Source: Pseudaquabacterium pictum (GTDB lineage: Bacteria > Pseudomonadota > Gammaproteobacteria > Burkholderiales > Burkholderiaceae_C). From it: a stretch of DNA of 64,000 nt. A program made the position numbers and the translations under genes. Location: contig NZ_BJCL01000003.1 of the NCBI RefSeq assembly GCF_005403045.1, positions 496,001 to 560,000 on the forward strand, given 5' to 3'. Under the pieces are notes generated by a model that was not told the origin of the DNA, did no database searches, and worked only from the letters and a program-made list of their open reading frames with translations. Position 1 is the stretch's first letter. Every line of letters begins with the position of its first letter. Shown in pieces: positions 38,191 through 58,012 of this stretch.

Positions 38191-39393
38191 ATGCTCCGAC
38201 GCGACTGGTCCGTCTCCGCCATCACCGCCGGCTTCCTGGCCGTGCTGATCTCGTATGCCGGTCCGTTGCTGATCTTCTTCCAGGCTGGTCGCGCCGCTGG
38301 TGCGGGGCCGGAACTGATGGCGTCATGGGTGTGGGCCATTTCGATGGGTGCAGCGGTCTCCGGCATCGTGCTGAGCTGGTGGCTGAAGGTGCCGGTGGTC
38401 ACCGCCTGGTCGGCGCCCGGCACGGCGCTGCTGATCACCTTGTTCCCCGGGCTGTCGCTGGCCGAGGCCGTGGGGGCGTACATCACGGCTGCGGTGCTCA
38501 TCTTGCTGGTGGGCCTGAGCGGCGGCTTCGACTGGCTGATGCGACGCATACCGCGAGGCATCTGCGCCGGCATGATGGCCGGCATCCTGTTCCAGTTCGG
38601 CGCCGGCGCCTTCAAGGCGGTGCAGGCGATGCCGCTGCCCACGCTGTGCATGGTGGCCGGCTGGCTGGTGGCGCGGCGCTTCTGGCCGCGCGACCACCTG
38701 CTGATCGTGCTGGCGCTGGGCCTGGCACTGGCCGCCGGCAGCGGAGGTGTCGACTGGAGCGTGTTGCAGCTGGAGTTCTCGCGCCCGGTCTTCACCGCAC
38801 CCGCGTGGAGCTGGGCCTCGACGCTGAGCCTGGCGTTGCCGCTGGCGGTGGTCAGCCTGGCCGGCCAGTTCCTGCCCGGCATGGCCATCCTGCGCGGCGC
38901 GGGCTACACCACGCCGGCGCGGCCGGTGCTGGTGGCCACCGGCCTGGCGTCGCTGTGCACCGCGCCGTTCGGTGGCATCACCACCGTGCTGGCCGCGATC
39001 ACGGCAGCACTCTGCACCGGTCGCGATGCGCACTCCGACCCGGCGCGCCGCTACGTGGCCGGCATCGCCAGCGGCTCCTTCTTCCTCTTGGGCGGTTGCC
39101 TGGCCGGCAGCATCATCGGTCTGTTCACCGTGCTGCCCGCACCCTTCGTTGCGGTGCTGGCGGGGCTCGCGCTGGTCGGTGCGATCACCGCCAACGTGCA
39201 AGCGGCGGTCAGCGACCCGGCCGACCGCGACGCGGCGATGGTCACCTTTCTCGTCACCGCCAGCGGCATGGGCCTGTGGGGCCTGGGGTCGGCGTTTTGG
39301 GGCGTGGTGATCGGTGGCGGCGCCCATGCGGTGCTGGGCTGGCGGCGACCGACCGCCGCAACGGCCGCAGCCGCCGACGCCGCGGCGCGTTAG
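38191..39393 (+). CDS. benE: Benzoate transporter BenE
   Basis: A 400-residue inner-membrane protein of the BenE family (benzoate:H+ symport), with about 11-12 hydrophobic segments. Typical parts are VPVVTAWSAPGTALLIT, IPRGICAGMMAGILFQFG, CTAPFGGITTVLAAITAALCTGRDAHSDPARRY and AVLAGLALVGAITANV. It sits 73 bases behind pcaD. Its TAG stop interlocks with the TAA stop of the convergent benM gene (39390-39393), so no terminator separates them. A second benzoate carrier, BenK, is encoded at 46931. Confidence 0.94.
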   Translation: MLRRDWSVSAITAGFLAVLISYAGPLLIFFQAGRAAGAGPELMASWVWAISMGAAVSGIVLSWWLKVPVVTAWSAPGTALLITLFPGLSLAEAVGAYITAAVLILLVGLSGGFDWLMRRIPRGICAGMMAGILFQFGAGAFKAVQAMPLPTLCMVAGWLVARRFWPRDHLLIVLALGLALAAGSGGVDWSVLQLEFSRPVFTAPAWSWASTLSLALPLAVVSLAGQFLPGMAILRGAGYTTPARPVLVATGLASLCTAPFGGITTVLAAITAALCTGRDAHSDPARRYVAGIASGSFFLLGGCLAGSIIGLFTVLPAPFVAVLAGLALVGAITANVQAAVSDPADRDAAMVTFLVTASGMGLWGLGSAFWGVVIGGGAHAVLGWRRPTAATAAAADAAAR

Positions 39394-40358
39394 AACGACA
39401 GGTCCGCGTTCGGACCGCCGCCCAGGCCCACCGACGCGGGTGTGCCGATGTCGGCCTGCTGCCGCGCCGCGGCATGCTCGGCGTAGATCCGGTCGATCAG
39501 CCCGCGCAGCAGCACGATGTCCTCGTTGCGGTCGTGCATCCGCGTGCTCATGATGATCGGCGACACAGCCTGCGGATCGCTCAGCGGGCGGTAGACCACC
39601 TCATCGGGCCGCAACCGGCTCACGCCGGTGGGCACCACGCACAGGCCCATGCCGGAGGCCACGAGGCCCAGCGCAGTTTGGATTTCCTGCACCTCGTGCA
39701 CCGCTGCGGGCTGCAAGCCTTGGTCGCGGAACAGCGACAACACCTGGTCGGCATAGCTGGGCCTGGGCTTTCGCGGGTAAACCAGAATATCGTAGCTCTC
39801 TAGTGCCGCGATAATAATAGGTTTGCCTGAAATTGCCAGGCTATGCTCAATAGGTATCGCCACCACCAGGCGTTCCTCGCGCAGCACCTCGCGCTGGATG
39901 CTGGGATCGTCCAGCCGCACGCGGCCGAATCCCACGTCGATGCGGCCCGCCTTCAGGGCCTCGGTCTGGTCCAGCGTCGACATCTCTTCCAGCGCGATCT
40001 CCACCTGCGGCAACTCGGCGCGGAACAACCGCACCAGGCGCGGCAGCGCGCCGTACATCGTCGACGCGACGAAGCCGATCACCAGCCGTCGCTCCATGCG
40101 GGCCACCCTGCGCGTGGCCCGGGCCGCCTGGGCGGCCTGTTCCAGCAAGCGCGTGGCGTGGCTGTAAAAAAAGCGCCCGGGCTCGGTCAGCTTCAGCGGG
40201 CGTGAGCCGCGTTCGAACAGCGGCGTCCCCAGTTCCTCTTCCAGATCCTGGATCTGCCGGCTCAGCGGCGGCTGCGAGATGTGCAGCCGCTCGGCCGCGC
40301 GGGTGAAGCTCTGCTCATCAGCCACGGCGACGAAGTAGCGCAGGTGTCGCAATTCCAT
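39390..40358 (-). CDS. benM: LysR-type activator of ben/cat genes (BenM/CatM family)
   Basis: A 322-residue LysR regulator with the HTH MELRHLRYFVAVADEQSFTRAAERLHISQPPLSRQ and the effector domain of the BenM/CatM/CatR group, which responds to cis,cis-muconate and, in BenM, benzoate. It is divergent from catB and a perfect BenM/CatM dyad lies four bases upstream of its start. Codons around 39785-39835 are AT-rich (ATA-ATT-ATT-ATC for isoleucines), unlike the rest. Whether it is the BenM or CatM type cannot be settled by eye. Confidence 0.9.
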   Translation of the reverse strand: MELRHLRYFVAVADEQSFTRAAERLHISQPPLSRQIQDLEEELGTPLFERGSRPLKLTEPGRFFYSHATRLLEQAAQAARATRRVARMERRLVIGFVASTMYGALPRLVRLFRAELPQVEIALEEMSTLDQTEALKAGRIDVGFGRVRLDDPSIQREVLREERLVVAIPIEHSLAISGKPIIIAALESYDILVYPRKPRPSYADQVLSLFRDQGLQPAAVHEVQEIQTALGLVASGMGLCVVPTGVSRLRPDEVVYRPLSDPQAVSPIIMSTRMHDRNEDIVLLRGLIDRIYAEHAAARQQADIGTPASVGLGGGPNADLSF

Positions 40359-42974: not shown

Positions 42975-43096
42975 CACCCGTGCCGCCCCGCGCGGCGCCC
43001 ACACCCCCCAAGAGCCTCCCCGTCCGGGCGCCTGCGCGCCCGGGCCGGGCGAAGCCTTGCCCCAACGTGGCCCGCGTGGCGGGCATGGAGACACGC

Positions 43097-44509
43097 ATGA
43101 GCACTTCCGCATCCCTCGATGCCGTCAAGAATCGGCTGGCTGGCATGCTGGTGGAGGACGCCGACCGGCACGTCTACCGCCTGCACCGCAGCGCCTTCAC
43201 CGACGAAGCCCTGTTCGACCTGGAGATGAAGCACATCTTCGAGGGCAACTGGATCTACCTGGCCCACGAGAGCCAGATCCCCAACCCCAACGACTACTTC
43301 ACCACCCAGATCGGCCGCCAGCCGATCGTGATCACCCGCAACAAGGCGGGCGAGCTGAACGCGATCATCAACGCCTGCTCGCACCGCGGCGCCACGCTGT
43401 GCCGCCACAAGAAGGGCAATAAGACCAGCTTCACTTGCACCTTCCACGGCTGGACCTTCAACAACAGCGGCAAGCTGCTGAAGGTGAAGGACGCCAACGG
43501 CGCCGGCTACCCCGACAACTTCAACAAGGACGGCAGCCACGACCTGAAGAAGGTCGCCCGCTTTGAGAGCTACCGCGGCTTCCTGTTCGGCAGTCTCAAC
43601 CCCGACGTGCCGCCGCTGACTGAGTTCCTCGGCGAGTCGACCAAGATCATCGACATGATCGTCGACCAGTCGCCCGAGGGCCTGGAGGTGCTGCGCGGCT
43701 CGTCGACCTACACCTTCGACGGCAACTGGAAACTGCAGGCCGAGAACGGCGCCGACGGCTACCACGTCAGCTCGGTGCACTGGAACTACGCGGCTACGAC
43801 CAACCAGCGCAAGCAGGCCGCGGCTGGTGACACCATCAAAGCGATGGACGCCGGCAGCTGGGCCAAGAACGGCGGCGGCTTCTACTCGTTCGAGCACGGC
43901 CACATGCTGCTCTGGACCAAGTGGGCCAACCCCGAAGACCGGCCCGCCTACCCGATCCGCGACCAGCTGGCCGCGCAGTTCGGTCAGGCCCGGGCCGACT
44001 GGATGATCGGCCACTCGCGCAACCTGTGCCTGTACCCGAACGTCTACCTGATGGACCAGTTCAGCTCGCAGATCCGCGTGCTGCGGCCGATCAGCGTGAA
44101 CAAGACCGAGGTCACGATCTACTGCATCGCGCCCAAGGGCGAGACGCCCGAGGCGCGCGCCCGCCGCATCCGCCAGTACGAGGACTTCTTCAACGCCACC
44201 GGCATGGCCACGCCCGACGACCTGGAGGAGTTCCGCGCCTGCCAGCAGGGCTACGCCGGCATTGCGCTGCCCTGGAACGACATGTGCCGCGGTGCCACGC
44301 AGTGGGTGCAGGGCCCCGATGCCGCCGCCAAGGAAATCGGCCTGAACCCGAAGCTGTCGGGCGTGAAGACCGAGGACGAAGGCCTCTACACCGTGCAGCA
44401 CGGCTATTGGCTGGAGACGATGCAGCGCGCCGTCGCCGCCGAGGAAGCCCGCGAAGCGGTCGGCGTCGAGCACCCGGTGTGCGGCCACCAGCACGCATGC
44501 GACCACTGA
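43097..44509 (+). CDS. benA: Benzoate 1,2-dioxygenase, large subunit
   Basis: A 470-residue Rieske oxygenase alpha subunit. The [2Fe-2S] ligands are Cys94, His96 (CSHRG), Cys114 and His117 (CTFHGWTF). The mononuclear iron ligands are His223, His228 and Asp320, with the bridging Asp220 ([13 protein letters not shown]). With BenB and the reductase BenC it makes the benzoate cis-diol. Two ATGs exist; GGAG at 43087-43090 is six bases before ATG 43097, which is preferred. benB follows 20 bases later. Confidence 0.96.
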
Positions 44510-44529
44510 CCGCACCGAAGGAGCGCACC

Positions 44530-45015
44530 ATGATGACCATCGAACAAGTGCAGGCCTTCCTGTACCGCGAAGCCCGGCTGCTGGACGACCGCCAGTGGGA
44601 CGACTGGCTGGCCCTGTACCACCCGGCGGTGGATTTCTGGATGCCGTCGTGGGACGACGACGACCAGCTCACCACCGACCCGCAGCGTGAGATCTCGCTG
44701 ATCTACTACGCCAACAAGGGCGGGCTGGAAGACCGGGTCTTCCGCATCAAGACCGAGCGTTCGGCAGCCTCCATGCCCGAGCCGCGCACCGGCCACAACA
44801 TCCACAACGTCGAGATCGTGTCGCAGCACGGCGAGCAGATCGCGCTGCGCTTCAACTGGCACACCTTGAGCTACCGCTACCAGACGGTGGACAGCTACTT
44901 CGGCACCAGCCACTACACGCTGGACCTGAGCAGCGGTGCGCCGCTCATCCGGCGCAAGCACGTGGTGCTGAAGAACGACTACATCCACCACGTCCTGGAC
45001 GTGTACCACATCTAA
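44530..45015 (+). CDS. benB: Benzoate 1,2-dioxygenase, small subunit
   Basis: A 161-residue beta subunit of the ring-hydroxylating dioxygenase, with the NTF2-like cone fold. Typical parts are FLYREARLLDDRQWDDWLALY, FWMPSWDDDDQLTTDP and the C-terminal RKHVVLKNDYIHHVLDVYHI. It starts at the first of two adjacent ATGs (44530), with AAGGAG eight bases upstream. It is structural and contributes no metal ligands. Confidence 0.96.
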   Translation: MMTIEQVQAFLYREARLLDDRQWDDWLALYHPAVDFWMPSWDDDDQLTTDPQREISLIYYANKGGLEDRVFRIKTERSAASMPEPRTGHNIHNVEIVSQHGEQIALRFNWHTLSYRYQTVDSYFGTSHYTLDLSSGAPLIRRKHVVLKNDYIHHVLDVYHI

Positions 45016-45026
45016 CCCCGGTTGAA

Positions 45027-45051
45027 CGCGGCCCTGCACAGCGGGGCCGCG
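45027..45051 (+). other. Stable hairpin between benB and benC
   Basis: A perfect 8-bp stem CGCGGCCC / GGGCCGCG with a nine-base loop lies in the benB-benC gap. It has no U-run. In an operon this could adjust the oxygenase to reductase ratio through RNA decay or partial termination (inference). Confidence 0.45.
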
Positions 45052-45074
45052 CTGCCGCATGGAGGAGACACCCC

Positions 45075-46085
45075 GTGACCCACCAGATTGCCTTCCGCTT
45101 CGAAGACGGCGTCACCCGCTTCATCACCGCCAACGCCGGCGAGACCGTGGCGGATGCCGCCTACCGCCAGGGCGTCAACATCCCGCTGGACTGCCGCGAC
45201 GGCGCCTGCGGCACCTGCAAGTGCCGCGCCGAATCGGGCCGCTTCGAGATGGGCGAGTACATCGAGGACGCGCTGAGCGAAGATGAAGCCGCGCAGGGCT
45301 TCGTGCTGACCTGCCAGATGCGCGCCCAGAGCGATTGCGTGGTGGCCGTGCCCGCTTCATCGGCGGTGTGCCGCACGCCGCAGGCGGCGGTGCAAGCCAA
45401 CGTGCAGTCGGTGCGCCAGCTGTCGCCCAGCACCATCGCGCTGACGCTGCAGGCCCCTGCGCTGGACAAGCTCGCCTTCCTGCCCGGCCAGTACGTCAAC
45501 CTGCAGTTGCCCGGCAGCACCGAGACGCGCGCCTACTCGTTCAGCTCGTTGGTGAACGACGGCATGGTGTCGTTCCTGATCCGCAATGTGCCGGGCGGCC
45601 GCATGAGCGGCTGGCTGACAGGCACCGCCCAGCCCGGCGATGCGATGACGCTGACCGGCCCGCTGGGCACCTTCTACCTGCGTGACATCCAGCGCCCGCT
45701 GCTGCTGCTGGCCGGCGGCACCGGCCTGGCGCCGTTCACCGCCATGCTGGAGAAGATCGCCCGGGACGGCGGCAGCCCGCACCCGATCCACCTGGTCTAC
45801 GGCGTCACGCTCGATGCCGACCTGGTCGACATGGACAAGCTGGCTGACTTTGCCCGCCGCATCCCGAACTTCAGTTTCGCCGCCTGCGTGGCCAGCCCGG
45901 ACAGCGCCTACCCAAACAAGGGCTATGTCACCCAGCACATCACGCCGGCGCACCTGAACGACGGTGACGTCGACATCTACCTGTGCGGCCCGCCGCCGAT
46001 GGTCGAGGCCGTGAGCCAGTTCATCCGCGGCTGCGGTGTCAAACCGGCGAACTTCCACCACGAGAAGTTCGCTGCCAGCGCCTGA
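45075..46085 (+). CDS. benC: Benzoate 1,2-dioxygenase reductase
   Basis: A 336-residue electron-transfer protein. A plant-type [2Fe-2S] ferredoxin domain comes first, with Cys40, Cys45, Cys48 (CRDGACGTCKC) and Cys80. It is followed by an FAD domain (RAYSFSS) and an NADH domain (LLLAGGTGLAPFTAML, LCGPPPMVEA). It delivers electrons from NADH to BenAB. GTG-free start: ATG-less frames were excluded because GGAGACACCCC precedes GTG 45075, the apparent initiator. benD follows nine bases later. Confidence 0.94.
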   Translation: MTHQIAFRFEDGVTRFITANAGETVADAAYRQGVNIPLDCRDGACGTCKCRAESGRFEMGEYIEDALSEDEAAQGFVLTCQMRAQSDCVVAVPASSAVCRTPQAAVQANVQSVRQLSPSTIALTLQAPALDKLAFLPGQYVNLQLPGSTETRAYSFSSLVNDGMVSFLIRNVPGGRMSGWLTGTAQPGDAMTLTGPLGTFYLRDIQRPLLLLAGGTGLAPFTAMLEKIARDGGSPHPIHLVYGVTLDADLVDMDKLADFARRIPNFSFAACVASPDSAYPNKGYVTQHITPAHLNDGDVDIYLCGPPPMVEAVSQFIRGCGVKPANFHHEKFAASA

Positions 46086-46094
46086 GGAGCCAAC

Positions 46095-46871
46095 ATGACC
46101 GCACGATTCAACAACAAGGTGGCCGTGGTCACCGGCGCGGCGCAGGGCATCGGCCGGCGCGTCGTCGAGCGCATGCTGGCCGAGGGCGGCCGCGTGGCCG
46201 CGGTGGACCGCGCCGAGATCGTCCATGAACTGACCACGCTGCCCGGCGCCGCCGAGCGCCTGCTGACGCTGGCCGCCGACCTCGAGCGCAACGCCGATGC
46301 TGAGCGTGTGATGGCGGCCACGGCCGAACGCTTCGGCCGGCTCGACATCCTGGTCAACAACGTCGGCGGCACGATCTGGGCCAAGCCCTTCGAGCACTAC
46401 CGTGAACACGAGATCGAGGCCGAGGTACGGCGCTCGCTGTTCCCCACGCTGTGGTGCTGCCATGCGGCGCTGCCCTACATGCTCCAACAGGGCGGTGGTG
46501 CGATCGTCAACGTCTCGTCGATCGCCACCCGCGGCGTCAACCGCGTGCCCTATGGCGCGGCCAAGGGCGGCGTCAATGCGCTGACCGCCTGCCTCGCCTT
46601 CGAGAACGCCGAGCGTGGCATCCGCGTCAACGCCACCGCCCCTGGCGGCACCGAGGCGCCGCCACGGCGCATCCCGCGCAACACCGAGCAGCCCACTTCG
46701 CAGGAGAAAGCCTGGTATCAGCAGATCGTCGACCAGACGGTGCAGTCCAGCCTGATGAAGCGCTACGGAACGATCGACGAGCAGGCCGGCGCGATCCTGT
46801 TCCTCGCCTCGGACGAGGCCAGCTATATCACCGGCGTCACCTTGCCGGTGGGCGGCGGCGACCTGGGTTGA
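46095..46871 (+). CDS. benD: Benzoate cis-diol dehydrogenase
   Basis: A 258-residue SDR that oxidises 1,6-dihydroxycyclohexa-2,4-diene-1-carboxylate to catechol with loss of CO2. It has the cofactor motif GAAQGIGRR (residues 14-22), VNNVGGTIWAKPFEHY, catalytic Ser141/Ser142, Tyr153 and Lys157 (YGAAK) and the BenD-type block APGGTEAPPRRIPRN. GAGGAGCCAAC precedes ATG 46095. Confidence 0.96.
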   Translation: MTARFNNKVAVVTGAAQGIGRRVVERMLAEGGRVAAVDRAEIVHELTTLPGAAERLLTLAADLERNADAERVMAATAERFGRLDILVNNVGGTIWAKPFEHYREHEIEAEVRRSLFPTLWCCHAALPYMLQQGGGAIVNVSSIATRGVNRVPYGAAKGGVNALTACLAFENAERGIRVNATAPGGTEAPPRRIPRNTEQPTSQEKAWYQQIVDQTVQSSLMKRYGTIDEQAGAILFLASDEASYITGVTLPVGGGDLG

Positions 46872-46930
46872 CCCCGCGCCAGCCCAGCCGCATCCAGACC
46901 ACACAACACACAGTTCCCGGAGAGAGACCC

Positions 46931-48313
46931 ATGCGACAGATCGACCTTCACAAGGTGGCCGACGAGGCCCCCTTCACCCGCTACCACGGCCTCGTGCTGT
47001 TCTGGTGCGCCCTGATCATCATCTTCGACGGCTATGACCTGGCGGTGGCCGGTATCGCCCTGCCGTCTATCATGAAGCAGATGGGCGTGGACCCGACCCA
47101 GGCCGGCTTCATGGTCAGCTCAGCCCTGTTCGGCATGATGTTCGGTGCCATCTTCCTCGGCACCATCGCCGACCGCATCGGCCGCCGTTGGGCGATCGCG
47201 ATCTGCATCGCGCTGTTCAGCATCTTCACGGCCGCAGCGGGCCTCACCAACGATCCGGTGTGGTTCAGCGTCACCCGCTTCCTGGCCGGCCTGGGCATCG
47301 GCGGCGTCATGCCCAACGTCGTGGCGCAGATGACCGAGTATTCGCCGCGCCGCCTGCGCGCCACCCTCGTCACGCTGATGTTCAGCGGCTACGCGGTGGG
47401 TGGCATGCTGGCTGCCGTGCTGGGCAAGGGCCTGATCGAGAGCCACGGCTGGCAGTCGGTCTTCCTGGCTGCGGCGCTGCCGGTGCTGCTGATCCCGTTC
47501 ATCCTGAAGTCGCTGCCCGAGTCCATGCCCTTCCTGCTGAAGCGTGGCCGCCATGACGAGCTGAAGGCCATCCTCGGCAAGCTGGACCCGCGTCTGCAGC
47601 CCACCGCCGCCGACCGCTTCGTGCTGCCACCGGTCGAGCAGGCCGCCAGCGCACCCGTGCGCCACCTGTTCCAAGACGGCCGCGGCTTCAGCACCGTGAT
47701 GTTCTGGGTCGCGTTCTTCATGTGCCTGTTCATGGTCTACGCGCTCAGCTCGTGGCTGACCAAGCTGATGGCCGGCGCCGGCTACACGCTGGGCTCGGCA
47801 CTCACCTTCGTGCTGACGCTGAATTTCGGCGGCATGCTGGGCGCTATCGGCGGCGGCTGGCTGGCCGACCGCTTCAACATCAAGTGGGTGCTGTTCTCGA
47901 TGTACCTGCTGGCGGCGGTGTCGATCACGCTGCTGGGCGTGCCAATGCCCACCGACGCGCTGTTCGTGGTCGTCGGCCTGGCGGGTGCATCGACCATTGG
48001 CACGCAGATCGTCACCTATGCCTACGCCGGCCAGTTCTACCCGATGGCAATCCGCTCCACAGGCATTGGCTTTGCCTCCGGCGTGGGCCGCAGCGGCGCG
48101 ATCCTGGCGCCGATCGTGATCGGCATGCTGGTGGCGATGGCCCTGCCGCTGCAGCTGAACTTCGTCGCCATCGCCATCCCTGCCGCGCTCGCTGCGCTGG
48201 CGGTGGCGATGATCCAGCACGACCGCTCGGCGACGGTGCAGGCCACGGCCGTGCGCAACGCCGATGCGGCCGGCGTCGCGCCGCTCGCCGCTGCCGGCGG
48301 CGGGGCGGATTGA
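46931..48313 (+). CDS. benK: MFS benzoate/aromatic acid:H+ symporter
   Basis: A 460-residue major facilitator of the aromatic acid:H+ symporter family, twelve hydrophobic segments. The conserved DGYDLAVAGIALPS in the first helix, GTIADRIGRRWAI in loop 2-3 and GGWLADRFNIKWVL in loop 8-9 match BenK/PcaK-type carriers. Closing the ben operon next to benABCD suggests benzoate as the substrate. GGAGAGAGACCC precedes ATG 46931. Confidence 0.92.
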   Translation: MRQIDLHKVADEAPFTRYHGLVLFWCALIIIFDGYDLAVAGIALPSIMKQMGVDPTQAGFMVSSALFGMMFGAIFLGTIADRIGRRWAIAICIALFSIFTAAAGLTNDPVWFSVTRFLAGLGIGGVMPNVVAQMTEYSPRRLRATLVTLMFSGYAVGGMLAAVLGKGLIESHGWQSVFLAAALPVLLIPFILKSLPESMPFLLKRGRHDELKAILGKLDPRLQPTAADRFVLPPVEQAASAPVRHLFQDGRGFSTVMFWVAFFMCLFMVYALSSWLTKLMAGAGYTLGSALTFVLTLNFGGMLGAIGGGWLADRFNIKWVLFSMYLLAAVSITLLGVPMPTDALFVVVGLAGASTIGTQIVTYAYAGQFYPMAIRSTGIGFASGVGRSGAILAPIVIGMLVAMALPLQLNFVAIAIPAALAALAVAMIQHDRSATVQATAVRNADAAGVAPLAAAGGGAD

Positions 48314-48333: not shown

Positions 48334-49698
48334 ATGATTGCCCTTCGCACCTTGCGCATGCTGTTCCGTCCCAGCGGCCGACTGGCCCGCGCGCTGGCCC
48401 CGACCTTGATGACGCTGCAGGCCGCCTGGGTTCCGGCCGGCGCCGCGCAGGCCCAGCCTCATGCCCTGGCGCCGGCCATCGATGCTCAGGTGGCACGCCA
48501 CTACCCCGGGCTGGAGCAGCTGTACCAGGACCTGCATGCCCATCCCGAACTGGGCTTCCAGGAGGTGCAGACCGCCGCGAAGCTGGCCGCCGCCATGCGC
48601 GCCGCTGGTTTCACCGTGACCGAGCAGGTCGGCCGCACCGGCCTCGTGGCCCTGCTGCGCAACGGCCCCGGGCCGACCATCCTGGTGCGCACCGACATGG
48701 ATGCCCTGCCGATGGAGGAGAAGACCGGGCTGCCCTACGCCAGCCACGTGCAGGTGGACCACCTGGGCCGCCAGACCTTCGTCGCGCACAGCTGTGGGCA
48801 TGACCTGCACATGGCCGGCTGGGTCGGCACCGCGCTGACGCTGGCGGCCCTGAAGGACCGTTGGCAGGGCACGCTGATGTTCATCGCCCAGCCTGCCGAG
48901 GAACTGCTGGGGGGTGCCAAGGCGATGCTGGCCGACGGCCTGTTCCAGCGCTTCGGCAAGCCGGACTTCGCCTTTGCACTGCACACCTGGCCGATGGCAC
49001 ATGGCGAGATCGGCTTCAACGTCGGCGCGGTGACGTCGAACGCCGACGCCTTCGAACTGACTTTCAACGGTCGCGGCGCCCACGGATCGGCACCCGACAA
49101 GTCGATCGACCCGCTGCTGATGGCGTCACGCTTCGTCGTCGACGTGCAGGGCGTGGTCAGCCGCGAGAAGGACCCGTTCCAGTTCGGCGTGCTCAGCGTC
49201 GGCGCGATCCAGGGCGGCACCAGCGGCAATATCATTCCTGACAGCGCGTTGCTGCGCGGCACGCTACGCAGCTACGACCCAGCGGTGCGCACCAAGCTGC
49301 GTGACGGCCTGCGGCGCACCGCGCTGGCCACCGCCACGATGGCCGGCGCGCCCGAGCCGAAGCTCACCATCACGCCTGGCGGTGACGCCACGGTCAACGA
49401 CGCGCGGCTGGTCGAGCGGGCCGAGACGGTGCTGAAGGCCGCCTTCGGCGCCCAGGTCAAGCGCATGCCGCCGATCACGCCCAGCGAGGACTTCGCCGAG
49501 TTTGGCAGCGCCGGCGTGCCTTCGATGTTCTTCCTGGTCGGTGTGCTCGACCCGAAAGATGTCGAGGCGGCGCGCCAGCCGGGCGGCAAGCCGGTGCCGG
49601 GCAACCACTCGCCCTTCTTCGCGCCGGTGCCCGAGCCCTCGATCAAGACCGCGGTGAAGGCGATGAGCCTGGCCGTGCTGAGCGCGCTGCAGCGCTGA
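48334..49698 (+). CDS. Exported M20-family amidohydrolase (hippuricase-like)
   Basis: A 454-residue metallo-amidohydrolase of the M20 aminoacylase/hippuricase group. Motifs are HAHPELGFQE, DMDALPMEE, HSCGHDLHMA (metal ligands Cys/His), QPAEELLGG and a dimerisation domain with FNGRGAHGSAPD. Unlike most relatives it has a leader ending AAWVPAGAAQAQP, so it is probably exported; ATG 48358 is an alternative start nine codons in. Its position 20 bases after benK suggests hydrolysis of an N-acyl or N-aroyl amino acid such as hippurate in the periplasm (inference). Confidence 0.85.
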   Translation: MIALRTLRMLFRPSGRLARALAPTLMTLQAAWVPAGAAQAQPHALAPAIDAQVARHYPGLEQLYQDLHAHPELGFQEVQTAAKLAAAMRAAGFTVTEQVGRTGLVALLRNGPGPTILVRTDMDALPMEEKTGLPYASHVQVDHLGRQTFVAHSCGHDLHMAGWVGTALTLAALKDRWQGTLMFIAQPAEELLGGAKAMLADGLFQRFGKPDFAFALHTWPMAHGEIGFNVGAVTSNADAFELTFNGRGAHGSAPDKSIDPLLMASRFVVDVQGVVSREKDPFQFGVLSVGAIQGGTSGNIIPDSALLRGTLRSYDPAVRTKLRDGLRRTALATATMAGAPEPKLTITPGGDATVNDARLVERAETVLKAAFGAQVKRMPPITPSEDFAEFGSAGVPSMFFLVGVLDPKDVEAARQPGGKPVPGNHSPFFAPVPEPSIKTAVKAMSLAVLSALQR

Positions 49699-49754: not shown

Positions 49755-50585
49755 ATGACCCAACCCTGCATCATCACCGTCGCCATCACCGGCTCGCTGC
49801 CGCAGAAGCGCGACAACCCGGCCGTGCCGATCACCGTTGCCGAGCAGATCGAATCCACGCACGAGGCCTTCGAGGCCGGCGCGACGCTGGTGCACCTGCA
49901 TGTGCGCAATGACGACGGCACCGCCACCTCGTCGCCCGAGCGCTTTGCCCAGGTGTTCGACGGCATCCGCAAGCACTGCCCGGGCATGATCGTGCAGTTC
50001 TCGACCGGCGGCCGTTCCGGCGCCGGCCGCGAACGCGGCGCGCACCTGCTGTTGAAGCCAGACATGGGCTCGCTGGCCACCGGCTCGGTCAACTTCCCGA
50101 CCCGCGTCTACGACAACAGCCCCGACCTGGTCGAGTGGCTGGCCACCGAGATGCGTGAACACGGCATCAAGCCCGAGGTCGAGGCCTTCGACCTGTCGAT
50201 GATCTTCCAGGCCGCCAGCCTGCAGCAGCGGGGTTTCATTCGCGGTCCGCTGCATGTGCAGTTCGTGATGGGCATCCGCAACGCGATGCCGGTTGACCGC
50301 GAGGTGCTGGAGTTCTACGTGCGCACGCTCCAGCGCCTGGCCCCCGACGCCACCTGGACCGGCGCCGGCATCGGCCGGGACCAGCTGACGCTGGCGCGCT
50401 GGTCGCTGGAACTGGGCGGCCACTGCCGAACCGGCATGGAGGACAACGTGCGCCTGGATCGCGACACGCTGGCACCGTCGAACGCCGCGCTGGTGCGCCA
50501 GGTGGCGCAGCTTTGCGCCGAGCATGGCCGCCCGGTCGCCACCGCCGCGCAGGCGCGGCGACTGCTCGGCCTGGCCGCAGCCTGA
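49755..50585 (+). CDS. Beta-keto acid cleavage enzyme (BKACE, DUF849)
   Basis: A 276-residue TIM-barrel enzyme of the BKACE family (founding member Kce, 3-keto-5-aminohexanoate cleavage enzyme), which condenses a beta-keto acid with acetyl-CoA to give acetoacetate and a new acyl-CoA. The zinc-binding HxH is His47/His49 (LVHLHVRN). Other blocks are IVQFSTGG, KPDMGSLATGSVNFP, EVEAFDLSM and RTGMEDNVRLDR. Substrate specificity in the family is broad and cannot be read here. It lies 56 bases behind the amidohydrolase and 20 before maeB. Confidence 0.92.
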   Translation: MTQPCIITVAITGSLPQKRDNPAVPITVAEQIESTHEAFEAGATLVHLHVRNDDGTATSSPERFAQVFDGIRKHCPGMIVQFSTGGRSGAGRERGAHLLLKPDMGSLATGSVNFPTRVYDNSPDLVEWLATEMREHGIKPEVEAFDLSMIFQAASLQQRGFIRGPLHVQFVMGIRNAMPVDREVLEFYVRTLQRLAPDATWTGAGIGRDQLTLARWSLELGGHCRTGMEDNVRLDRDTLAPSNAALVRQVAQLCAEHGRPVATAAQARRLLGLAAA

Positions 50586-53019: not shown

Positions 53020-53910
53020 TCAGGGCTGTTCACGCATCAGGTCGGCGACCAGCTTTCGCACAATCGGCAGGCCAGGCGGCTCAGCCCGGCGGGCCAGCGT
53101 GACGATGCCGAAGCGCGCCGTGGCGCCCATCGCGGGTTTCAGCGCCAGTTCCACCAGGTCTGGCGCCGCGGCACGGATGGCGATCAGCACCGCATCGCTG
53201 TCGCGCACCACCTCGACCAGGCTGGCAATCTCCTCACAACGCAGGGTGACGCACTCGGACGGGTGCGCGCCGGGCCCGTAGCGCTCGACCAGCGTGCGCG
53301 CCACCTCGTCGCTGAGCGGCGTGGAGGCGATCGGAAACTGGCGAAGCGCGTCGAAGCGCAAGTGGCCTTTCCAGCGGGTGAGCGGGTGGTCTGCGCGCAC
53401 CATGAAGGCGCCGCGCATCTCGACCAGGCTGGCCACGCGCAGGTCGGCAGCCGGCACCAGCGAACGCGCGTCGACGACCAGCGCGTCCAGCTCGCGTTCG
53501 CGCAAGCGGCGGATCAGCACGTCGGTGTGACCGCGTGCGATGTCGACGTGCACCGTCGGGTGTGATGTCGCCATCGTCTTCAGCAGTGGCGTCATCAGCA
53601 TCGCGCCAGGCCCGGAGCCCAGGCCAATGCGCACCGTGCCCGAGCGGCCTTCGCACATCTGCCGGCCGCTGCCGGCCAGCTCTTCGGCATCGAACACCAG
53701 CTGCCGCGCCCGCTGCAATGCGTCGGCACCGAAGGACGTGAGCACGCTGCGCTTACCCACCCGGTCGAACAACGGCTGCCCGAGTTCGTCTTCCAGGGCT
53801 CGGATGCTGCGGCTGAGTGCAGGTTGCGTCAGGAACAACGACTCGGCCGACTTGGTGAACGAGCCGCTCTGCGCAAGGGAGATCAGGTGTCGAAGCTGGA
53901 CCAGTGTCAT
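53020..53910 (-). CDS. LysR-type regulator of the adjacent Bug/amidohydrolase genes
   Basis: A 296-residue LysR regulator with HTH LISLAQSGSFTKSAESLFLTQPALSRSIRALEDELGQPLF and an effector domain. The ATG at 53908-53910 (MTLVQLRHL) is the family start; an upstream extension is unlikely. It is divergent from the Bug protein gene at 54042, with a symmetric LysR-type box between them, so it probably controls uptake and hydrolysis of the substrate handled by that module. Confidence 0.9.
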   Translation of the reverse strand: MTLVQLRHLISLAQSGSFTKSAESLFLTQPALSRSIRALEDELGQPLFDRVGKRSVLTSFGADALQRARQLVFDAEELAGSGRQMCEGRSGTVRIGLGSGPGAMLMTPLLKTMATSHPTVHVDIARGHTDVLIRRLRERELDALVVDARSLVPAADLRVASLVEMRGAFMVRADHPLTRWKGHLRFDALRQFPIASTPLSDEVARTLVERYGPGAHPSECVTLRCEEIASLVEVVRDSDAVLIAIRAAAPDLVELALKPAMGATARFGIVTLARRAEPPGLPIVRKLVADLMREQP

Positions 53911-53924
53911 CGGGTTAACCAGAC

Positions 53925-53945
53925 ATGAGCATGCTTTGAACTCAT
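53925..53945. promoter_or_regulatory. LysR box ATGAG-N11-CTCAT
   Basis: A perfect 5-bp dyad ATGAG / CTCAT with an 11-base spacer fits the T-N11-A form of LysR binding sites. It lies 15 bases upstream of the lysR start and about 100 from the divergent Bug gene. Confidence 0.6.
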
Positions 53946-54041
53946 CATATCGCCACACACAATGCATTGGACGTTGTTTGTTTGCTTTCCTACATTGGCG
54001 CATCTACACCCTGTACCCACTACCTGCACAAAGGATTCGCC

Positions 54042-55022
54042 ATGAGACAGTTCCAACGCTCCATGACCCTGTTCGCCGGCTTGCTGCTTGGCGCCGCTGC
54101 AGTCCTGGCGCAGGGCGGGCCGTCCAAGCCGGTCAACCTGATGGTCCCGTACCCGGCGGGCGGCCCTTCCGACGCGATCGCACGCATCTTCTTCAATCCG
54201 CTCGGCAAGGAGCTGGGGCAACAGGTGCTGGTGGAAAACCTCGGCGGCGTCAGCGGTGCCCTGGCCGCGCAGAAGGTGCTGGCGGCACCGGCGGACGGCC
54301 AGTACATCTTTCAGGGTTCACCCAATGAGGTGATCCTGTCGCCGCTGGCCAATGCCGCAGTGAAGCTGAAGACAGAGGACTTCCGCCTGGTCCATCCGGT
54401 GGCCGACGCGGTGATGGTCTTCGTGACCCGCAAGGACCTGCCCGTGGCCAGCGTCGACGAACTCATCGCGCTGGCCCGGAAGTCGGCCGACAGGCCGCTG
54501 AGCTACGGCAGCGTTGGCATCGGCTCGCTCTACCACCTGATCCTGGAGAACGTGCAGGCGCAGACAGGCGTCAAGCTGTCGCATGTGCCCTACAAGGGCA
54601 ACGCGCCGCTGCTGCAGGACATCGCCGGCGGCCAGGTCGACTTCGCCGTGCTGGTCTACAGCGCTGCGATGGGTGCGCTCGCTGACCAGGGGCGGCTGAA
54701 GGTGATCGGCCAGCTCGGCGCGCAGCGCTCGGAGCTGCTGAAGAACGTGCCTTCGGCCAGCGAGAGCCAGGCACTGAAGGGCTTCTCGTACAAGATCTGG
54801 ACGGGGTTCATGGTGCCGAAGAGCACGCCGGAAGATGTCGTCGTGCGCCTGCATGCCGCCATCGGCAAGACCCTGCAGGACCCGACGGTGCGCACGCAGT
54901 TGGCAGCGCAGACGCAGCTGGCTGCCGCGCCGATGACGCTGGCCGAGTCGGCCAGGTTCTTCGACGCCGAAACGGCGCGCTACCGCGCGATTGCCAAGCA
55001 GATCCAGCTGCAGCCGCAGTGA
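54042..55022 (+). CDS. Bug/TctC-family solute-binding protein (hippurate module)
   Basis: A 326-residue exported binding protein with leader MRQFQRSMTLFAGLLLGAAA and family strands PSKPVNLMVPYPAGGPSDA, VENLGGVSGALAAQKVLAAP and SHVPYKGNAPLLQDIAGGQ. AAGGA precedes ATG 54042. It sits seven bases before the M20 hydrolase gene, so it probably binds the compound that enzyme cleaves. No TctAB genes accompany it. Confidence 0.88.
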   Translation: MRQFQRSMTLFAGLLLGAAAVLAQGGPSKPVNLMVPYPAGGPSDAIARIFFNPLGKELGQQVLVENLGGVSGALAAQKVLAAPADGQYIFQGSPNEVILSPLANAAVKLKTEDFRLVHPVADAVMVFVTRKDLPVASVDELIALARKSADRPLSYGSVGIGSLYHLILENVQAQTGVKLSHVPYKGNAPLLQDIAGGQVDFAVLVYSAAMGALADQGRLKVIGQLGAQRSELLKNVPSASESQALKGFSYKIWTGFMVPKSTPEDVVVRLHAAIGKTLQDPTVRTQLAAQTQLAAAPMTLAESARFFDAETARYRAIAKQIQLQPQ

Positions 55023-55029
55023 GGCCGGC

Positions 55030-56232
55030 GTGACCTACTTGCTGGATGCGTTGAACGCCCGAGCGGGTGAGTTCATCAGCCTGCGCCGGGACATCCACCG
55101 CCACCCCGAGCTGGCCTTCGAGGAGCACCGCACTGCTGCCCTGGTGGCCGACAAGCTGTCCGGCTGGGGCTACGAGGTGCATCGGGGCATCGGCGGCACC
55201 GGCGTGGTCGGCACGCTGGTGCGCGGCACCAGCCCCCGGCGGCTCGGTATCCGTGCCGACATGGATGCCCTGCCGATCGACGAAGCCAGCGGCGCCGGCT
55301 GGGCCAGCGTGCATGCCGGCGTGATGCACGCCTGCGGGCACGACGGCCACACGGCCATGCTGCTGGCAGCGGCGCGGCACCTGGCCGAGCACGCCACCTT
55401 CGACGGCACGCTGCACCTGATCTTTCAGCCGGCTGAAGAAGGTGGCGGCGGTGCGCTGCGCATGATGGCCGACGGCCTGTTCGAACGCTTTCCCTGCGAC
55501 GCCGTCTTTGCCATGCACAACATGCCGGGCATTGAACAGGGCCGCTTCGTTCTGCGCGACGGGGCCGCGATGGCCTCGTCGGACTATGCCACCGTCACCA
55601 TCACCGGCCGAGGCGGGCATGGAGCCATGCCACACCAGGCAGCCGACCCCATCGTCGCCGCGGCCAGCATCGTCATGGCGCTGCAGACCATCGTGGCGCG
55701 CAACATCGACCCGCTGCAGGCGGCGGTGGTGACCGTGGGCGCGTTGCACAGCGGCAAGGCGAACAACGTGATCCCCGCCAGCGCCACGCTGGAGCTCAGC
55801 GTGCGTGCGCTCGACCGCGCCGTGCGCGCCACGGTCGAGCGCCGCGTGAAAGCGGTGGTCGCGGCACAGGCCGAGAGCTTCGACGTGCAGGCACAGATCG
55901 ACTGGCGGCCGGGCTACGCGGTGCTGGTCAACACGCCCGTCGAAACCGCGTTTGCACGGGAGGTGGCCACGGAACTGGTGGGTGCCGAACGGGTGACACC
56001 GCAGGGACCGCCGCTCACCGGCAGCGAGGACTTCGCGTTCATGCTGGAGCGCGTGCCAGGCAGCTATCTGCTGATCGGCAATGGCACTGATGGCAGTCCG
56101 GGCGCGGGCGGCTGCATGGTGCACAACCCCGGCTACGACTTCAACGACGAGAACATCGCTGCTGGAAGCGCCTACTGGGTGCTGTTGGCAGAACGGTTTC
56201 TGGCTGCGAAGGAACCTGTCGAACAACGATAG
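55030..56232 (+). CDS. M20 amidohydrolase, probable hippurate hydrolase
   Basis: A 400-residue cytoplasmic M20 enzyme of the hippuricase/aminoacylase group. Metal-binding blocks are Cys102/His104 in HACGHDGHTAM, Glu136/Glu137 in QPAEEGGGG, a His in AMHNMPG and the final CMVHNPGYDFND. No ATG fits; GTG 55030 with GAGG upstream opens right before the conserved N terminus. Hippurate (N-benzoylglycine) is favoured because benzoate genes lie nearby and a glycine riboswitch follows directly, but other N-acyl amino acids are possible. Confidence 0.85.
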   Translation: MTYLLDALNARAGEFISLRRDIHRHPELAFEEHRTAALVADKLSGWGYEVHRGIGGTGVVGTLVRGTSPRRLGIRADMDALPIDEASGAGWASVHAGVMHACGHDGHTAMLLAAARHLAEHATFDGTLHLIFQPAEEGGGGALRMMADGLFERFPCDAVFAMHNMPGIEQGRFVLRDGAAMASSDYATVTITGRGGHGAMPHQAADPIVAAASIVMALQTIVARNIDPLQAAVVTVGALHSGKANNVIPASATLELSVRALDRAVRATVERRVKAVVAAQAESFDVQAQIDWRPGYAVLVNTPVETAFAREVATELVGAERVTPQGPPLTGSEDFAFMLERVPGSYLLIGNGTDGSPGAGGCMVHNPGYDFNDENIAAGSAYWVLLAERFLAAKEPVEQR

Positions 56233-56244
56233 ACGCTGGAACCC

Positions 56245-56428
56245 CGCAGGAGAGCGCTCCGGCCATGGCCGGAGCCACCGAAGGCGCAATCTCCCATGAA
56301 CGCTCAGGTCCCGTACTGCACACCACCATCGCCGTCTGGAGAGCCGTCACGACCGTGACGCACCGAAGGAGCAAGGCCCCAGTTGATGACCGGGGCTGAA
56401 TCTCTCAGGTACCAAGGACAGGGGGAGC
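56245..56428 (+). promoter_or_regulatory. Tandem glycine riboswitch
   Basis: Two aptamers in a row. The first (56248-56320) has AGGAGAG, then CCGAAGGCGCAA and GCTCAGGT. The second (56337-56426) has TGGAGAG, CCGAAGGAGCAA, CTCTCAGGT and AAGGACAGGGGG. These are the conserved cores of the gcvT-type RNA. GGACAGG at 56416-56422 is complementary to CCTGTCC at 56459-56465, close to the GGAG (56470-56473) of the next gene, a candidate expression platform. It should place the downstream amino-acid dehydrogenase under glycine control. Confidence 0.93.
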
Positions 56429-56479
56429 GGCACACCGCAGGGCCACGCCTTGAGGATTCCTGTCCCTTTGGAGATCTCA

Positions 56480-57778
56480 ATGAAAGTCATCGTCCTCGGC
56501 GCCGGCCTGCTCGGCGTCACCTCGGCCTATTTCCTGCGTCAGCAGGGCCACGACGTCACCGTGATCGACCGGCAGGCCACGCCCGCCGCCGAAACCAGCT
56601 TCGCCAACGGCGGGCAGATCTCCGTCAGCCATGCCGAACCCTGGGCCAACCCCAGCGCGCCGCTGAAGGTGCTGCAGTGGCTGGGGCAGGAAGACGCGCC
56701 CCTGCTGTTCCGCATCCGTGCCGACATGCGGCAGTGGCTGTGGGGCTTGCAGTTCCTGCGTGAATGCACGCCGGCGCGCACCCGCCACAACATCGAACAG
56801 ATCGTGCGCCTGGGCACCTACAGCCGCGACATGCTGCAGGCCCTGCGCCGCGACATCGGCATCGACTACGACCAGCGCACCCAGGGCATCCTGCACTTCT
56901 ACACCAGCCAGAAGGAATTCGACGGCGCCGAAGCGCCGGCTGCGCAGATGCGCGCGCTCGGCTGCGACCGGCGGGTGATCTCGGCTGACGAGGCCGTGGC
57001 GCTGGAGCCGGCGCTGCGCCACATCCGCCCGCAGCTGGCCGGTGCCACCTACACCGCCGAGGACGAATCTGGCGACGCCAACCGCTTTGCCCGCGAACTG
57101 GTGGCCCGCTGCCGCGCCGACGGCGTGCAGTTCCTGATGAGCCACACCGTGACGGCGCTGCGCGAGGCCGGTGGCCAGATCGACCATGTCGAGGCCACCG
57201 ACGCCGAAGGCCGGTTCCAGCGCGTGCGCGGCGATGCCTATGTGCTGGCCATGGGGAGCCTGAGCCCGCTGCTTGCCGCGCCGCTGGGCATCCGTTTGCC
57301 GATCTACCCGGCCAAGGGCTACTCGGTGACGATGCCGGTCAAGGATGCGTCGATGGCGCATCAGGTGTCGTTGACCGACGACGAATACAAGCTCGTCTTC
57401 TCGCGCCTGGGCGACCGCCTGCGCATCGCCGGCACGGCCGAGCTCAACGGCTACGACCGCGACCTGAACCGCGTGCGTTGCGAGGCGATCGTGCGCCGGA
57501 CCGAGGAACTGTTTCCTGGCGCTGGCGACACCGAACAAGCCCAGTTCTGGACCGGGTTGCGGCCGGCCACGCCATCCAACGTGCCGATCATTGGCCGCTC
57601 GAAGATCGGCAACCTCTACCTGAACACCGGTCACGGCACGCTGGGCTGGACCCACGCCTGCGGCTCGGGCAAGAGCATTGCGCGCATCGTCAGCGGGCTG
57701 GCGCCGGAGGTGGACTTTGCGTTCACCGGGCTGCCTGCGCGAGTGGCCCGGATCCGGGGTCTCGAAATGCCGGCATGA
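56480..57778 (+). CDS. dadA: FAD-dependent D-amino acid dehydrogenase (DadA family), glycine-regulated
   Basis: A 432-residue flavoprotein of the DadA/glycine oxidase group. The FAD dinucleotide motif is VLGAGLLGVTSAYFLRQQGHDVTVID at the N terminus; later blocks are TSFANGGQIS, PIYPAKGYSVTMP, GTAELNGYDRDLN, WTGLRPATPSNVPIIG and NTGHGTLGWTHACGSG. It deaminates D-amino acids or, given its riboswitch, glycine to glyoxylate (inference). GGAG lies six bases before ATG 56480. It stands alone after the riboswitch. Confidence 0.92.
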   Translation: MKVIVLGAGLLGVTSAYFLRQQGHDVTVIDRQATPAAETSFANGGQISVSHAEPWANPSAPLKVLQWLGQEDAPLLFRIRADMRQWLWGLQFLRECTPARTRHNIEQIVRLGTYSRDMLQALRRDIGIDYDQRTQGILHFYTSQKEFDGAEAPAAQMRALGCDRRVISADEAVALEPALRHIRPQLAGATYTAEDESGDANRFARELVARCRADGVQFLMSHTVTALREAGGQIDHVEATDAEGRFQRVRGDAYVLAMGSLSPLLAAPLGIRLPIYPAKGYSVTMPVKDASMAHQVSLTDDEYKLVFSRLGDRLRIAGTAELNGYDRDLNRVRCEAIVRRTEELFPGAGDTEQAQFWTGLRPATPSNVPIIGRSKIGNLYLNTGHGTLGWTHACGSGKSIARIVSGLAPEVDFAFTGLPARVARIRGLEMPA

Positions 57779-57893
57779 GGCTGGCCTGGGCACGGCGGGC
57801 TGCCTGACAGAGACGGAGCGCATGCCTCGCCGGTTATCGCGCTGACCGGGAATCTCATTGGCGTGCGCGCGGGGCTGGTGCCACAGTGCGCGC

Positions 57894-58012
57894 ATGCCAA
57901 CGACTCCCATCATCGGCGCGTCCCGCGGCCTTGGGCTGGAGTTCGTTCGCCAGTGCGCTGCCGATGGCGATGAAGTCTGGGCAACGGCCCGCGGCGAAGC
58001 CGACCTGCAGGG
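57894..58012 (+). pseudogene. N-terminal fragment of a short-chain dehydrogenase
   Basis: After ATG 57894 the frame reads MPTTPIIGASRGLGLEFVRQ and continues through DEVWATARG for about 40 codons, a clear SDR nucleotide-binding start. Then the similarity stops and no NNAG, YxxxK or other later motif follows in any frame. The gene appears cut by an insertion or deletion near 58012, close to the repeat at 58187. Confidence 0.6.

Follow-up and report, generated by a model that had tools for sequence, protein, structure and literature searches.

What is a glycine riboswitch doing between a gene for an amidohydrolase and a gene for an amino acid dehydrogenase? The question is raised by a 64,000-nucleotide stretch of the genome of Pseudaquabacterium pictum, a relative of Rubrivivax (NCBI RefSeq assembly GCF_005403045.1, contig NZ_BJCL01000003.1, positions 496,001 to 560,000; hereinafter, the window). 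At 53020-57778 of the window, genes for a LysR-type regulator, a Bug-type periplasmic binding protein and an M20 family amidohydrolase are followed by a tandem glycine riboswitch and a gene for a DadA-type, flavin adenine dinucleotide (FAD)-dependent amino acid dehydrogenase, and this order is a real, conserved module. We propose, with a probability of about 0.6, that it is an N-acylglycine utilization module: the M20 enzyme would cleave its substrate into benzoate and glycine, and glycine, through an ON-type riboswitch, would switch on its own oxidation by the DadA-type enzyme. The initial annotation of the locus had read it as a hippurate module along these lines, an interpretation that is partly supported by the analysis. 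The components are as follows.

53020-54003, minus strand, divergent from the Bug-M20 genes: LysR-type regulator (Pfam HTH_1 and LysR_substrate)
54042-55022, plus strand: Bug/TctC-type periplasmic binding protein (PF03401, 162.9 bits)
55030-56232, plus strand: M20 amidohydrolase, proposed N-acylglycine (hippurate) hydrolase (TIGR01891, 346.6 bits, cut-off 153.75)
56246-56431, plus strand: tandem glycine riboswitch (Rfam RF00504 for aptamer 2, and alignment fold)
56246-56319, plus strand: glycine aptamer 1, without a P3b stem and with three G-C pairs in P3a (alignment fold, 21 sequences)
56291-56295, plus strand: CUCCC in the P3b loop of aptamer 1, predicted 5' half of P5
56326-56431, plus strand: glycine aptamer 2, with P1 from 56331 (RF00504)
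56423-56427, plus strand: GGGAG in the 3'-terminal part of aptamer 2, predicted 3' half of P5
56470-56473, plus strand: putative Shine-Dalgarno GGAG of dadA (sequence)
56480-57778, plus strand: DadA-type FAD amino acid dehydrogenase, proposed glycine dehydrogenase (PRK00711, 504.8 bits, cut-off 383)

The five components in this order, as initially annotated, are borne out by the profile scores, RF00504 and the fold of 21 leaders; the span originally assigned to them, 55030-57778, holds the M20 gene, the riboswitch and dadA, but the LysR and Bug genes lie outside it.

The riboswitch is reported by Rfam only in part. RF00504 matches 56326-56431 with 54 bits against a gathering score of 32 (E 2.5e-8), the sole match in a scan of the whole window, and aptamer 1 goes unreported even when E is allowed up to 1. 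When 21 dadA leaders are aligned, they fold into two complete glycine aptamers with 44 pairs, of which 13 show, in at least one sequence, a change of both partners with pairing retained; 11 of these 13 belong to the P2 stems, and no both-sided change occurs in the P1 pairs of this alignment. Folding of the single leader gives no signal over shuffled sequences (z 0.38, with 135 of 200 shuffles folding as well or better), so the evidence for the tandem fold is comparative. The P3a of aptamer 1 is G-C, C-G, G-C in 21 of 21 leaders, and the P3b stem of this aptamer is replaced by a nearly fixed CUCCC loop. By fold and family, then, the window leader is a tandem glycine riboswitch, with predicted glycine binding. 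Two further candidate elements were dropped: an upstream reading frame in aptamer 1, whose ATG is ATA in some relatives, and a pairing between the 3' strand of P1 in aptamer 2 and a CCUGUCC that precedes the start codon, which seems convincing in the window but, by eye, not generally kept in the 20 aligned relatives.

The direction of the switch is suggested by the similarity of this leader to the ON-type tandem riboswitches of the RF00504 family that precede gcvT operons. The marks of the ON type, according to a report that itself cites another paper, are a P5 pseudoknot and, within the pocket of aptamer 1, three G-C pairs (PMC13104608). The window leader has two aptamers, three G-C pairs in P3a of aptamer 1, and P5 complementarity; unlike the gcvT-operon riboswitches, it presumably controls a DadA-type gene, and its aptamer 1, with P3b reduced to the CUCCC loop, escapes Rfam. 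The P5 complementarity was surveyed in 81 leaders (79 relatives, the window, and a second copy in the same genome), of which 73 could be parsed, the other eight being L026, L030, L034, L054, L060 and L067 (no aptamers by pattern), L052 (one aptamer) and L064 (unmatched tail). Over the 73 leaders, 364 of 365 CUCCC:GGGAG pair cells hold standard pairs, and 72 leaders have all five; a single cell is broken, and a single pair, C-G to U-A, is changed on both sides. Because the tail consists of a run of G, a partner shifted by -2 still gives 356 of 365, so the register of P5 rests on few cells. Swapping the halves between 16 DadA leaders yields a weak covariation signal (mean of 9.62 for own halves vs 9.28 for swapped ones) because both halves are nearly invariant. 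An ON direction of the dadA riboswitch is accordingly a proposal drawn from leader structure.

The evidence that ties the M20 enzyme to glycine comes from two surveys of gene neighborhoods, one started from dadA and the other from the M20 gene. Among the best 80 of 554 DadA relatives, the nearest of which come from Rubrivivax and metagenome-assembled genomes, 73 are preceded by one or more aptamer motifs, and in 23 this M20 (at least 70% identity) lies within 5 kb, upstream or downstream; the latter count is a lower bound because contig ends cut many loci. The 23 loci comprise 13 with the order M20-riboswitch-dadA, 4 in which a major facilitator superfamily (MFS) gene intervenes (M20-MFS-riboswitch-dadA), 3 without a riboswitch, and 3 with LysR-Bug-M20 downstream of dadA. 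In the reverse direction, 27 M20 orthologues (E up to 1e-170) were found in 25 of 150 genomes of the bacterial family, and 6-18 kb were fetched around each. Genes for glycine sinks are located near 13 of the 27: window-type DadA in 8 cases and a second DadA subfamily in 4 (both counted within 4.4 kb, midpoint to midpoint), and in one case the M20 gene lies between a riboswitch-gcvTHP operon and an L-serine ammonia-lyase gene (709 vs 345.1 bits). Three kinds of glycine sink are thus found as partners of one kind of M20, and the sink carries a glycine riboswitch in 11 of these 13 loci (none by pattern in G117 and G146). LysR and Bug genes (at least 35% identity) are each found near 20 of the 27 orthologues. 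The gene caller, a simple script based on G+C content by codon position, miscalls genes in places (for example, in L191), and the neighborhood counts were therefore redone with tblastn; the sample of relatives (L loci) and that of family genomes (G) overlap, as in L030/G146 and L027/G105.

Among the seven of the 80 relatives without an aptamer motif, L036 starts inside dadA and L067 has only 670 nucleotides upstream. In the six other than L036 (L026, L030, L034, L054, L060 and L067), a divergent LysR gene directly precedes dadA in two, and an M20 or Bug gene ends about 50 nucleotides or less before dadA in three, so that dadA in such loci tends to stand directly under the genes of the regulator.

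Stereochemistry points to the same compound. M20 amidohydrolases, as a rule, release L-amino acids, and DadA-type enzymes act on D-amino acids. What an L-type acylase and a D-type dehydrogenase could share is achiral glycine, and given also that the M20 gene is once joined to gcvTHP, glycine is the likely product of one enzyme and substrate of the other. Under the proposed mechanism, the Bug protein and a permease would take up an N-acylglycine, most likely hippurate, which the M20 enzyme would split into benzoate and glycine; LysR would control the Bug-M20 genes in response to the acid, and benzoate would be consumed by the products of ben/cat (or box) genes. Glycine would bind the tandem riboswitch, freeing dadA for translation, and the DadA-type flavoenzyme would oxidize glycine, with glyoxylate and ammonia as products, and hand the electrons on to the respiratory chain. 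The M20 enzyme resembles hippurate hydrolases and other M20 amidohydrolases in its TIGR01891 membership and in metal-binding motifs that were seen by eye; it differs from them in that hippurate is only its predicted substrate and in that its gene is part of a LysR-Bug-M20 arrangement followed by a riboswitch-bearing sink gene. The gene has a GTG start, and no leader peptide is visible by eye.

The benzoate half of the mechanism brings in ben genes, which are located upstream in the window together with a second M20 gene.

43085-44509, plus strand: BenA (TIGR03229, 879.8 bits)
43085-48313, plus strand: benA, benBCD-like frames and a benK-like transporter gene, proposed benzoate sink (BenB, BenC and BenD named by eye)
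48334-49698, plus strand: second M20 amidohydrolase, rival candidate for the hippuricase (TIGR01891, 265.8 bits; leader-like N-terminus by eye)

The distance that the initial annotation gave for the ben genes holds: with the BenD-like frame ending at 46871, they are located about 8-12 kb upstream of the M20 gene at 55030. The benzoate-type MFS (benK-like) transporter scores 395.3 bits with TIGR00895, under the cut-off of 418.55. In the 17 genomes that carry the M20-(MFS)-riboswitch-dadA module, BoxB is present in 16, with scores over the curated cut-off in 15 of them, and 2 have BenA; each has at least one of the two and, hence, an aerobic benzoate route. The base rates in the family are 79 of 150 for BoxB and, at a stricter cut-off, 12 of 150 for BenA. 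Genomes with the M20 have BoxB or BenA in 22 of 25 cases (the exceptions are G003, G032 and G127), compared to 65 of 125 without it (Fisher p 0.0005; p 0.0003 when permuted within fifths of genome size), although these and the other p-values below overstate the association because related genomes are counted as independent and the samples overlap.

The source genome itself has both BoxB and BenA. In the two BenA-bearing genomes among the 17, BenA is on the same contig as the module. One of these, Rubrivivax sp. A210 (L313), shows the order of the window with a shorter distance between the module and the ben genes; in the other (L312), a single contig of 19,921 bases encodes LysR, M20, MFS, the tandem riboswitch, DadA, pcaIJF, benE, BenM, CatA, BenA, BenC, BenD and a BenK-like protein. 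The link to benzoate that was originally claimed is, then, apparent in co-occurrence and in clustering in three BenA genomes, but most module genomes have the box route. Physical linkage to ben genes as a general rule was rejected, given that BenA is found in only 2 of the 17 module genomes and that BenA and M20 are on different contigs in G044, G045 and G069. From this genomic context, hippurate emerges as the best, if unproven, candidate for the substrate of the M20 enzyme.

The riboswitch-dadA pair, for its part, is a family-wide unit that occurs mostly without this M20. A glycine riboswitch is present in 140 of the 150 family genomes. In a deeper sample of 40 family genomes, 39 had matches, and the 110 matches merged into 56 sites, which precede gcvT (34), window-type DadA at least 62% identical (16), the second DadA subfamily (4) or neither (2). 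Among DadA genes at least 58% identical to that of the window, 16 of 17 in the 40 genomes have the riboswitch (the exception is G030). The second subfamily, which is 39% identical to the window DadA, passes PRK12409 (735.1 vs 494 bits). The source genome has three glycine-riboswitch sites: gcvTHP, the window, and, on contig C14, which has no M20 match, another tandem riboswitch that accompanies a DadA of 79% identity; a glycine riboswitch is absent from two other DadA paralogues (52% and 35%). In G003 and G039, the M20 genes sit elsewhere than the riboswitch-DadA sites. Because the pair is family-wide, mostly without M20, and present twice in the source genome, it probably did not evolve for hippurate.

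We also put forward a broader scenario, tentatively and as somewhat short of an even bet. The two DadA subfamilies would be glycine dehydrogenases that feed the respiratory chain and offer a route other than the glycine cleavage system across this family of Burkholderiales, and LysR-transporter-M20 modules for N-acylglycine catabolism would have repeatedly docked onto whichever riboswitch-controlled sinks were available, resulting in two layers of control, with LysR reading the substrate and the RNA reading the product. If so, a large share of the glycine riboswitches in one bacterial family would govern glycine oxidation by flavoenzymes rather than the glycine cleavage system, and the module would exemplify catabolism in which a regulatory protein senses the substrate and an RNA senses the product. 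The scenario also provides a functional hypothesis for two DadA subfamilies that are currently named only as D-amino acid dehydrogenases.

Several observations weigh against an N-acylglycine utilization module and are considered here along with the rival explanations. In a folding model without ligand or tertiary contacts, enforcing the aptamers raises access to the ribosome site in none of the 13 leaders that could be scored (8 of 21 could not) and lowers it in 6; over the 13, the site is unpaired at 0.35 in the free leader vs 0.23 with both aptamers enforced, so this crude test gives an ON switch no support and, if anything, leans against it. The overstated p-values are another such point, and DadA itself (at least 73% identity) also tracks benzoate genes (26 of 35 genomes vs 61 of 115, p 0.02); among genomes without such a DadA, however, M20 still goes with benzoate genes, which are present in 13 of 15 genomes with M20 vs 48 of 100 without (p 0.004). 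No glycine sink was found in the 6-18 kb around 14 of the 27 M20 orthologues, and among the DadA-type genes that follow 20 of the 56 riboswitch sites, only that of the window adjoins an M20 of the 1e-170 set, the other 19 lacking it. These two counts favor the view that riboswitch-dadA is a general device for glycine relief, placed incidentally behind an M20 enzyme that cleaves another N-acyl amino acid or an auxin conjugate. The same view is favored by the tendency of dadA leaders to own a -10-like box and by the solved chain nearest to the M20 enzyme, an indole-3-acetic acid (IAA)-amino acid hydrolase; an M20/M25/M40 peptidase and an N-acyl-glutamine aminoacylase are also among its nearest solved chains. 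However, incidental placement does not easily explain why the M20 gene joins glycine sinks of three kinds, in more than one gene order and both upstream and downstream, and co-occurs with benzoate genes, and we consider this explanation unlikely.

The identity of the substrate of DadA is also at issue. The window DadA passes the model of the D-amino acid dehydrogenase subfamily (PRK00711), falls far below the cut-off for the glycine oxidase ThiO (TIGR02352, 128.8 vs 250.8), and is 39% identical to Escherichia coli DadA, a member of the same flavoenzyme family. Conceivably, the enzyme oxidizes D-amino acids, and the riboswitch reads glycine as a mere proxy, for instance, for cell wall turnover. 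The window DadA scores below the cut-off of the D-amino acid dehydrogenase equivalog PRK12409 (339.9 vs 494), and most of its closest solved chains by sequence, albeit distant (best E 1e-15), are glycine and sarcosine oxidases. The neighbor of dadA in E. coli is the alanine racemase gene dadX, in contrast to the glycine riboswitch and M20 gene next to dadA here. Against a proxy role, an M20 acylase would need a racemase to yield D-amino acids, and a search by family of the four module genes, though not of the rest of the genome, turned up none; furthermore, glycine riboswitches also precede the distant second DadA subfamily, at 4 of the 56 sites, and this subfamily once stands directly behind gcvTHP (L204). 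We regard a proxy role as improbable. Only slightly less so is the assignment of hippurate cleavage to the second M20 enzyme (48334-49698), which was absent from the initial account of the locus, with the M20 at 55030 having another role. The gene of this enzyme is nearer to the ben genes, directly behind the benzoate-type MFS gene and in the same direction; the protein belongs to the same M20 family; BoxB or BenA is present in 4 of the 6 family genomes in which it occurs; and in L020 a second M20, 87% identical, is beside the module. But the second M20 is rare: at E up to 1e-100, 6 of 150 family genomes, the source genome among them, have a relative of it, compared to 25 of 150 for the 55030 type at the stricter 1e-170. 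In addition, the 55030 type is the sole M20 type seen on the L312 contig, which places the module next to pca and ben genes. The idea that the second M20 marks ben clusters was dropped, this gene being too rare to tell.

Glycine riboswitches on genes other than gcv have precedents. In SAR11 bacteria, the malate synthase gene glcB is under a glycine riboswitch, as stated in two reports (PMC2211319, PMC5069720). The parallel is a riboswitch on a non-gcv gene tied to glyoxylate metabolism; the difference is that a user of glyoxylate is switched there and a proposed maker of glyoxylate here. A further study places twelve orthologues of glycine metabolism under glycine riboswitches, itemized in its supplement, and lists beta-proteobacteria among the groups with the most glycine-regulated genes (PMC3766115). 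We claim no priority for riboswitch-dadA because dadA may be among these twelve. In the literature searched, we found no description of a glycine riboswitch on dadA or another amino acid dehydrogenase gene, nor, in titles and abstract openings, a link between hippurate and a riboswitch, and a broad search of the oxidase literature gave no mention of glycine riboswitches among the matches listed. Thus, we did not find this use of a known riboswitch class described in the literature searched.

The position of the riboswitch relative to the M20 gene is nearly constant. It begins 13 nucleotides after the M20 stop codon in the window, and the gap to aptamer 1 is 12-15 nucleotides in 13 of 14 Bug-M20-riboswitch loci (window included) and 43 in one. 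In 66 of the 81 leaders that were placeable by pattern (14 module loci and 52 others), a -10-like TAnnnT is found at offset -18 in 8 of the 14 module loci, the window not among them, and another 42 matches, located at -16 to -19, come from the 52 other dadA leaders. This box is overlapped by the stop codon of M20 in some module loci; its counterpart in the window is as follows.

56230-56235, plus strand: M20 stop codon at the place of the -10-like TAnnnT of relatives; here TAGACG, no match

A sigma-70 scan of 53900-57900 found no promoter. By the pattern in these leaders, transcription of dadA probably begins at a site of its own in many relatives. The presence of the box in relatives counts against the riboswitch as a purely intercistronic element without a promoter, although the window itself has no match.

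Upstream of the module, the window encodes several further proteins. The product of 49755-50585, near the ben/cat genes, is a 3-oxoadipate:acetyl-CoA acetyltransferase of the BKACE family (491.4 bits, cut-off 350), perhaps an alternative to pcaIJF for a late step. The cat genes were named by eye, a LysR protein at 39390-40358 is most similar to BenM and CatM, both under cut-off, and a malic enzyme is also encoded upstream (1134.4 bits, under the cut-off of 1178).

Several other loci show variations on the theme. On the reverse strand of L280 (G026:C131), a tandem riboswitch with the CUCCC loop and GGGAG tail of the dadA class precedes two genes whose proteins look, by eye, secreted, with none of the reference glycine genes downstream. 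At 662-1804 of L258, a tandem riboswitch with the loop of the second DadA class precedes a gene for an ABC binding protein of the branched-chain amino acid type (234.6 bits, under the cut-off of 477). In L074, a 345 kb contig, a Burkholderiales-like dadA with the riboswitch is found under the record title Cytophagales, which is probably a mislabel. In two Variovorax loci (L068 and L073), a second DadA-like gene, 42-44% identical, was called close upstream of riboswitch-dadA. At 10826-12314 of L204, a glycine aptamer and a DadA gene of the second subfamily directly follow riboswitch-gcvTHP, placing two glycine sinks in a row.

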